Shown: positions 1-21,203 of the stretch, in pieces | How positions within the stretch are numbered: position 1 is the first letter of the stretch | How the letters are laid out: each line of letters starts with the position of its first letter | Assembly (NCBI RefSeq): GCF_001522545.3 | Contig: NC_031783.1 | Coordinates: 6,225,433 to 6,289,432, forward strand | DNA from: Parus major | Lineage: Eukaryota > Chordata > Aves > Passeriformes > Paridae | DNA: 64,000 bases | Direction of reading: 5' to 3' | Translations under genes and position numbers: made by a program | Notes under the pieces: model-generated | What the model was told of the DNA's origin: nothing | Database searches by the model: none | The model's input: the letters and a program-made list of their open reading frames with translations, nothing else

Positions 1-321
1 TTACACTGGCACAGCAGTCAATAGACAAAAGGACATCAGCATAAAAGGGACCAGAGCTCAAAATAATAAAAGGAAGCCCAAAATACAGGCAACATAATTC
101 CATGGCTGAATGTCACTGTTTTGAGACAATAAAACAATCTGAAAAAAACTAAAGATCTGGCTCTTTGCTGCTCTGTATTTTCTGCAGCTGAGTAGAACAA
201 GTTATACGTGCTTTATGCAAAGGAGTCACAGTAATCCAGAGCACCTGTCCAATGTGAGATGGGGCCCTGTGTTTAACTGGGAAAAGTCATTGATTTTTGC
301 AAGATCTACAAATTCAGTTAC
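1..321. other. Left-edge intron of the LLTP gene
   Basis: Inside the LLTP transcript but without a supported exon. A pyrimidine-rich tract leading to an AG near position 6 on the minus strand could be the next acceptor, which would put exon 17 across the window edge. This cannot be tested from the window. Confidence 0.4.

Positions 322-21203: not shown

Follow-up and report, generated by a model that had tools for sequence, protein, structure and literature searches.

The Parus major orthologue of human LOC400499, a large lipid transfer protein gene beside LITAF

Textbook accounts of lipid transport in vertebrates centre on apoB, vitellogenin and MTP, and a further gene of this kind beside LITAF in a bird raises the question of what it encodes and where it belongs among the large lipid transfer proteins (LLTPs). 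The gene lies on the minus strand of a 64,000-nucleotide stretch of the 1.02-Gb Parus major genome (C16:6225433-6289432, the window in the following). An earlier note on this DNA had read it as a further LLTP lineage kept in birds and lost in mammals. Judged by its place in the tree and by the domain order of its relatives, the gene is orthologous to human LOC400499. Our best reading is that LOC400499 represents an old vertebrate LLTP lineage with an apolipophorin-like architecture. The gene is real and old, and the role of the giant protein that it encodes, in people too, is a good and testable question. A conserved giant relative of the known LLTPs, present also in humans, could be an overlooked lipid carrier, and the set of orthologues makes this directly testable in birds, fish or cultured cells.

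Structure and extent of the gene

Each of the four family motifs quoted in the earlier note was found once, on the minus strand, in a six-frame translation of the window. Fifteen exons were delimited by stop-to-stop translation and splice-site inspection, and a 51-nt exon 2 was added by means of the pigeon and owl orthologues. The resulting 16-exon join, running from 21203 to 322 on the minus strand, comprised 2277 nt (759 codons) without any stop and with all phases consistent. AG was present at all 15 acceptors and GT at 15 of the 16 donors, the remaining one, at the end of exon 15, being GC. Intron 15 thus apparently has a GC donor (window 1617/1616). The first 20 residues, read by eye, form a putative signal peptide. 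A Pfam scan of the 742-residue join without exon 2 matched Vitellogenin_N (1e-78) at profile positions 2-589 of 590, followed by the first 119 of the 303 positions of Vit_open_b-sht (4.3e-20). Since the Vitellogenin_N profile is covered in this way, the module is complete and not merely near-complete, as the note had it; its 16 phase-consistent exons and family motifs were confirmed. An open join of this length together with these predicted domains cannot be chance.

The gene extends some 50 kb beyond the left edge of the window, from C16 6246635 down to about 6175460. In the 70 kb to the left of the window, searched by tblastn with the orthologue of the blackbird Agelaius phoeniceus (P0037, the closest among the orthologues fetched, ending in VWD and C8), 3449 of 3475 residues were matched in order down to about 6175460. 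These matches cover the part of the bird gene, outside the window, that corresponds to the Pfam domain PF21013, and the VWD part is present among the downstream exons. Stops occurred in seven minus-strand matches, each in intron run-through or across a short intron, as judged by eye from the alignments. The gene of about 71 kb therefore looks intact, with a predicted protein of about 3,400-3,600 residues of which the window exons encode the N-terminal fifth. Over the window module, identity was 92.5% to Agelaius phoeniceus, 85% to owl, 79% to emu and about 50% to human.

A search of the bird's own genome with orthologue P0015 (22 of 40 first-look candidates scored) gave 23 matches, all on C16 within this gene. 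The other Vitellogenin_N matches of the genome lay on C10 and C3. Eight C10 loci matched lamprey lipovitellin, neither apoB nor LOC400499, and the C3 stretch scored 1514 bits (summed) with fish apoB versus 78-83 bits with LOC400499. APOB on C3, the vitellogenins on C10 and the LLTP gene on C16 thus occupy three separate contigs.

Relatives and placement among the lipid transfer proteins

Three protein searches matched 14, 19 and 142 proteins, with 120 of the 142 retrieved, so that the counts below are of retrieved rows. Of 138 proteins collected, 130 were taken as orthologue rows and the other 8 as outgroups, with group labels assigned from the protein names. The orthologue rows comprised 28 birds, 3 turtles, 13 squamates, 8 amphibians, 1 coelacanth, 5 cartilaginous fish, 3 teleosts, 1 lamprey, 3 marsupials and 65 placentals, among them human LOC400499 (P0080, XP_016879420.1, a model of 3285 residues). 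A bird-specific gene was rejected on this distribution, as was the proposed loss in mammals; the statement that APOB and MTTP are the only intact human members is contradicted by the human model, which falls into the same clade. The source names of these rows are uncharacterized protein, vitellogenin-like, apolipophorins-like and once apolipoprotein B-100, much the kind of generic name that had been guessed. The stork model (Mycteria americana, P0012) breaks off, as read by eye, into sequence resembling a non-LTR retrotransposon.

Pfam holds a domain of 527 positions named LOC400499 (PF21013, LOC400499 family). The Pfam name and the database rows indicate that the family is recorded, yet it is uncharacterised in the literature searched. 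The open-literature passages that name LOC400499 describe no function for it; they come from tables of associations or of expression, from a scan for selection and from a fly-human orthologue table (subscription papers and preprints lay outside this search). The orthologue table, in the part available, gives APOB and LOC400499 for apoLpp (PMC12561791). For two viper venom-gland transcriptomes queried with an ant sequence, the accessible passage reports no apolipophorin match (PMC12197698). A genome-wide association study of 451 adults lists, in the passage concerned, an intronic LOC400499 variant for high-density lipoprotein (HDL) cholesterol at P = 3.88e-6 (PMC10869499), which is a hint only because it falls short of the usual genome-wide significance threshold.

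Two trees were computed, from 29 rows of the N-terminal module and from 19 rows, and topologies were compared by the approximately unbiased (AU) test; the tested clades were partly chosen after the first tree, residue composition was deviant in five rows (lamprey and human among them) and several branches were very long. In the first tree the 19 vertebrate LOC400499-family rows formed one clade with the lamprey branching first (support 96/98), apart from apoB (100/100), lipovitellin, MTP and the invertebrate rows. The clade was recovered in the second tree (12 rows, 96/96). Holding the window sequence with APOB was rejected (p 4.84e-05). The further LLTP lineage proposed for this locus therefore stands as far as its distinctness from APOB and, less firmly, from vitellogenin and MTP is concerned, in agreement with the separate contigs of APOB and the vitellogenins, and falls as far as its loss in mammals is concerned.

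Deeper in the tree, the LOC400499 clade was placed with apoB at 72/76. Grouping with two apolipophorin-like rows was not rejected (p 0.241), nor was grouping of the whole clade with lipovitellin, represented by a single row (p 0.247); grouping with all three invertebrate VWD-bearing rows gave p 0.0569. MTP was the most distant row, a single one on a very long branch. A tree constrained to unite APOB with these two apolipophorin-like rows fared poorly (p 0.029), contrary to the usual APO family, but few rows and long branches make this a weak result.

Protein architecture and proposed role

The domain order of the orthologues is Vitellogenin_N, Vit_open_b-sht, the LOC400499 domain (in five of five orthologues scanned), a long middle part, VWD and C8. 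VWD was matched by Pfam in P0034 (2e-11), P0080 (2.1e-6) and P0127 (4.2e-11); some models, e.g. P0030 and P0059, end before VWD or lack it. Repeats in the middle part were not seen by self-BLAST and were then found with a profile of a module of about 120 residues. Copies numbered 9 in Aquila, 5 each in human and dog, 9 in a frog and 3 in a teleost; the profile had no match in three invertebrate rows or in two rows of fish apoB. Among 98 rows of at least 2,700 residues, copies per row numbered 5-9 in birds (22 rows), 6 and 9 in turtles, 3-9 in squamates (10), 9 and 9 in frogs, 9 and 10 in marsupials, 3-10 in placentals (57) and 2-3 in teleosts (3), counted as hmmsearch domains of at least 55 residues at E < 0.01, a count that split matches can inflate. 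At C16:6204723-6202121, to the left of the window, three successive exons carry one module each, two of which are missing from the Agelaius model P0037.

Profile alignment (hhalign) extended over residues 31-1075 with invertebrate apolipophorin-like proteins, the cnidarian-type row P0132 being left out (E 3.6e-58, 25% identity), and over residues 26-1111 with fish apoB (E 2.6e-46, 21% identity). The module has invariant positions across 18 sequences, including the lamprey and a mite relative. In a structure comparison of the predicted fold of the N-terminal module of the frog orthologue P0003, LLTP entries stood clear of all others. At E <= 0.01 the VWD-C8 profile matched 32 PDB sequences, without exception FCGBP, vWF or mucins.

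In its overall plan the LOC400499 protein most resembles apolipophorin II/I, with which it shares the lipid-transfer module, the open beta-sheet domain, a length of about 3,300 residues, a C-terminal VWD and an N-terminal CxxxC (P0133, P0134), and which gives its best profile match; it differs in that the bird gene lacks a furin site, the orthologues lack a reported DUF1081 and the repeat array was not detected in P0132-P0134. With apolipoprotein B it shares module and fold, and apoB is its best PDB match by sequence, but clade and chromosome are separate, and a scan of one fish apoB (P0135) reported no VWD. Vitellogenin is alike in module and fold (lipovitellin, bee vitellogenin) but has its loci on C10 here, and the LOC400499 gene is retained by yolk-less mammals. 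FCGBP, vWF and the gel-forming mucins share the C-terminal VWD-C8 unit, which in LOC400499 stands singly behind an LLTP body and not in repeated D assemblies. Within the family the bird gene is set beside its relatives by clade, by module identity to the human model and by the domain order of the orthologues, and differs in having 5-9 module copies in birds versus 5 in human and in the linker motif treated below. The APO family (apoB, apoLp-II/I, apoCr) is defined, in the part of the source available, by the lipid-transfer module, DUF1081 and VWD (apoB excepted), apoLp-II/I and apoCr having a furin site as well (PMC1783640). Because DUF1081 is unreported and birds lack the furin motif, the LOC400499 gene was not filed in this family.

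These comparisons lead us to favour, with some reserve, a secreted lipid carrier with a mucin/vWF-type end that is neither a yolk protein nor apoB. By homology, the protein would enter the secretory pathway, and its N-terminal lipid-transfer module, like those of apoB and apolipophorin, would start a lipid core that MTP probably helps to load. The long region after the module would enlarge the surface that binds lipid. The VWD-C8 end, whose best solved relatives are FCGBP, vWF and mucins, could tether the particle, or multimerise it, within mucus or the extracellular fluid. Secretion, lipid core and tether together would make such a carrier. More tentatively, and on balance doubtfully, LOC400499 might represent a further class of vertebrate lipoprotein scaffold, people included, next to those of apoB and vitellogenin: an old protein of apolipophorin-like kind which packs lipid, is anchored or polymerised by its mucin/vWF-type end and holds lipid particles in mucus, secretions or matrix and not free in blood.

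Several observations weigh against the lipid carrier. The tree is compatible with apoB, apolipophorin or vitellogenin as the nearest relative of the LOC400499 clade. The folded model of P0003 has a mean predicted local distance difference test (pLDDT) score of 67 with the last 175 residues unreliable, and most of the proposed lipid surface lies outside the folded region. DUF1081 was not reported in P0080 and P0034 (E up to 1) nor in P0030, P0059 and P0127 (E up to 10); nonetheless, the profile alignment passes through the region corresponding to it. The furin-type motif RX(K/R)R was absent from the window linker (exon 16, 603-322) and, among the rows in which a linker was found, present in 27 of 60 placentals versus 0 of 25 others (all 18 birds without). 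The placental position is near the cleavage site of invertebrate apolipophorins, and P0132-P0134 carry the motif at comparable positions.

Some of these points would suit an LLTP-derived structural or clotting/mucus protein, which kept the fold, lost lipid carriage and works through VWD-C8, like crustacean clotting proteins or FCGBP and mucins. The very strong C-terminal profile match to FCGBP, vWF and mucins, the unreported DUF1081 and the long repeat array, variable by lineage, are consistent with such a protein, and the VWD of LLTPs is linked to clotting and defence in the passages available of PMC1783640. Retention of the whole lipid-transfer module of about 1,000 residues, alignable to apolipophorin and apoB, and its invariant positions argue the other way, and we consider this alternative possible but unlikely. 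A lipid transfer protein that resembles MTP and stays inside the cell, in the endoplasmic reticulum, would share the N-terminal fold with MTP; the distance of MTP in the tree, a LOC400499 protein about four times longer that ends in VWD-C8 and the lack of a KDEL-type ending among the orthologue C-termini inspected make it improbable. A decaying, unexpressed relic, which the database name uncharacterized protein and the many partial or fused models might suggest, was rejected as more improbable still: the reading frame stays open through all 16 exons of the window and through the downstream matches, and the identity kept over the module from birds to human (blackbird 92%, owl 85%, emu 79%, human about 50%) would be hard to keep without selection. 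An ordinary orthologue of APOB, vitellogenin or MTTP, in spite of the common Vitellogenin_N domain and the models named vitellogenin or apolipophorins, can be practically dismissed given the separate clade, the AU test against APOB and the separate APOB and vitellogenin loci, and APOB itself was rejected on these grounds.

Features of the window and neighbourhood

Coordinates of the LLTP exons and of the neighbouring LITAF exons in the window
Feature	Position	Strand	Remark
Exon 1, coding part	21143..21203	-	ATG at 21203; hydrophobic N-terminus, putative signal peptide
Exon 2, 51 nt, CxxxC motif	20682..20732	-	segment also present in the pigeon and owl orthologues
Exon 3, Vitellogenin_N begins	19857..20017	-	
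Exon 4	18825..18895	-	orthologue tblastn
Exon 5, HFSFHDGK + [12 protein letters not shown]	16686..16851	-	
Exon 6, KTKDLNLC	15641..15778	-	
Exon 7	14689..14878	-	
Exon 8	13542..13669	-	
Exon 9, helical region begins	8372..8475	-	
Exon 10, helical region	6789..6954	-	
Exon 11, helical region	6359..6541	-	
Exon 12, KAIGNAG	5492..5644	-	
Exon 13, helical region ends	4080..4224	-	
Exon 14	2466..2624	-	
Exon 15, open beta-sheet domain begins; GC donor	1617..1735	-	
Exon 16, open beta-sheet domain and basic linker	322..603	-	next exon outside window, C16:6224776-6224618
LITAF exon, neighbour	30749..30874	-	tblastn, 62% identity, LITAF part of turtle gene model
LITAF exon, neighbour	30163..30336	-	tblastn, 79% identity, LITAF part of turtle gene model

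Both LITAF exons lie about 9 kb upstream of the LLTP gene on the same strand. A LITAF-type domain (PF10601) is fused to the LLTP protein in models P0024 (the turtle Chelonia mydas) and P0051 (the antbird Willisornis vidua), which points to adjacency of LITAF in these species too. Human LITAF presumably lies next to the LOC400499 locus on chromosome 16. The published passages available give 11.45 and 11.59 Mb on human chromosome 16 as positions of LOC400499 variants.

Between the LLTP gene and LITAF, a GC-rich 33-bp minisatellite (window 23944-24254, 9.5 copies, 96% match) keeps several long frames open that overlap one another, on both strands. The snake models P0125 (Naja naja) and P0131 (Protobothrops) fuse the LLTP protein with ABC-transporter domains, one of them being named multidrug resistance-associated protein 1-like; these fusions reflect either an annotation artefact or a changed neighbourhood in snakes.
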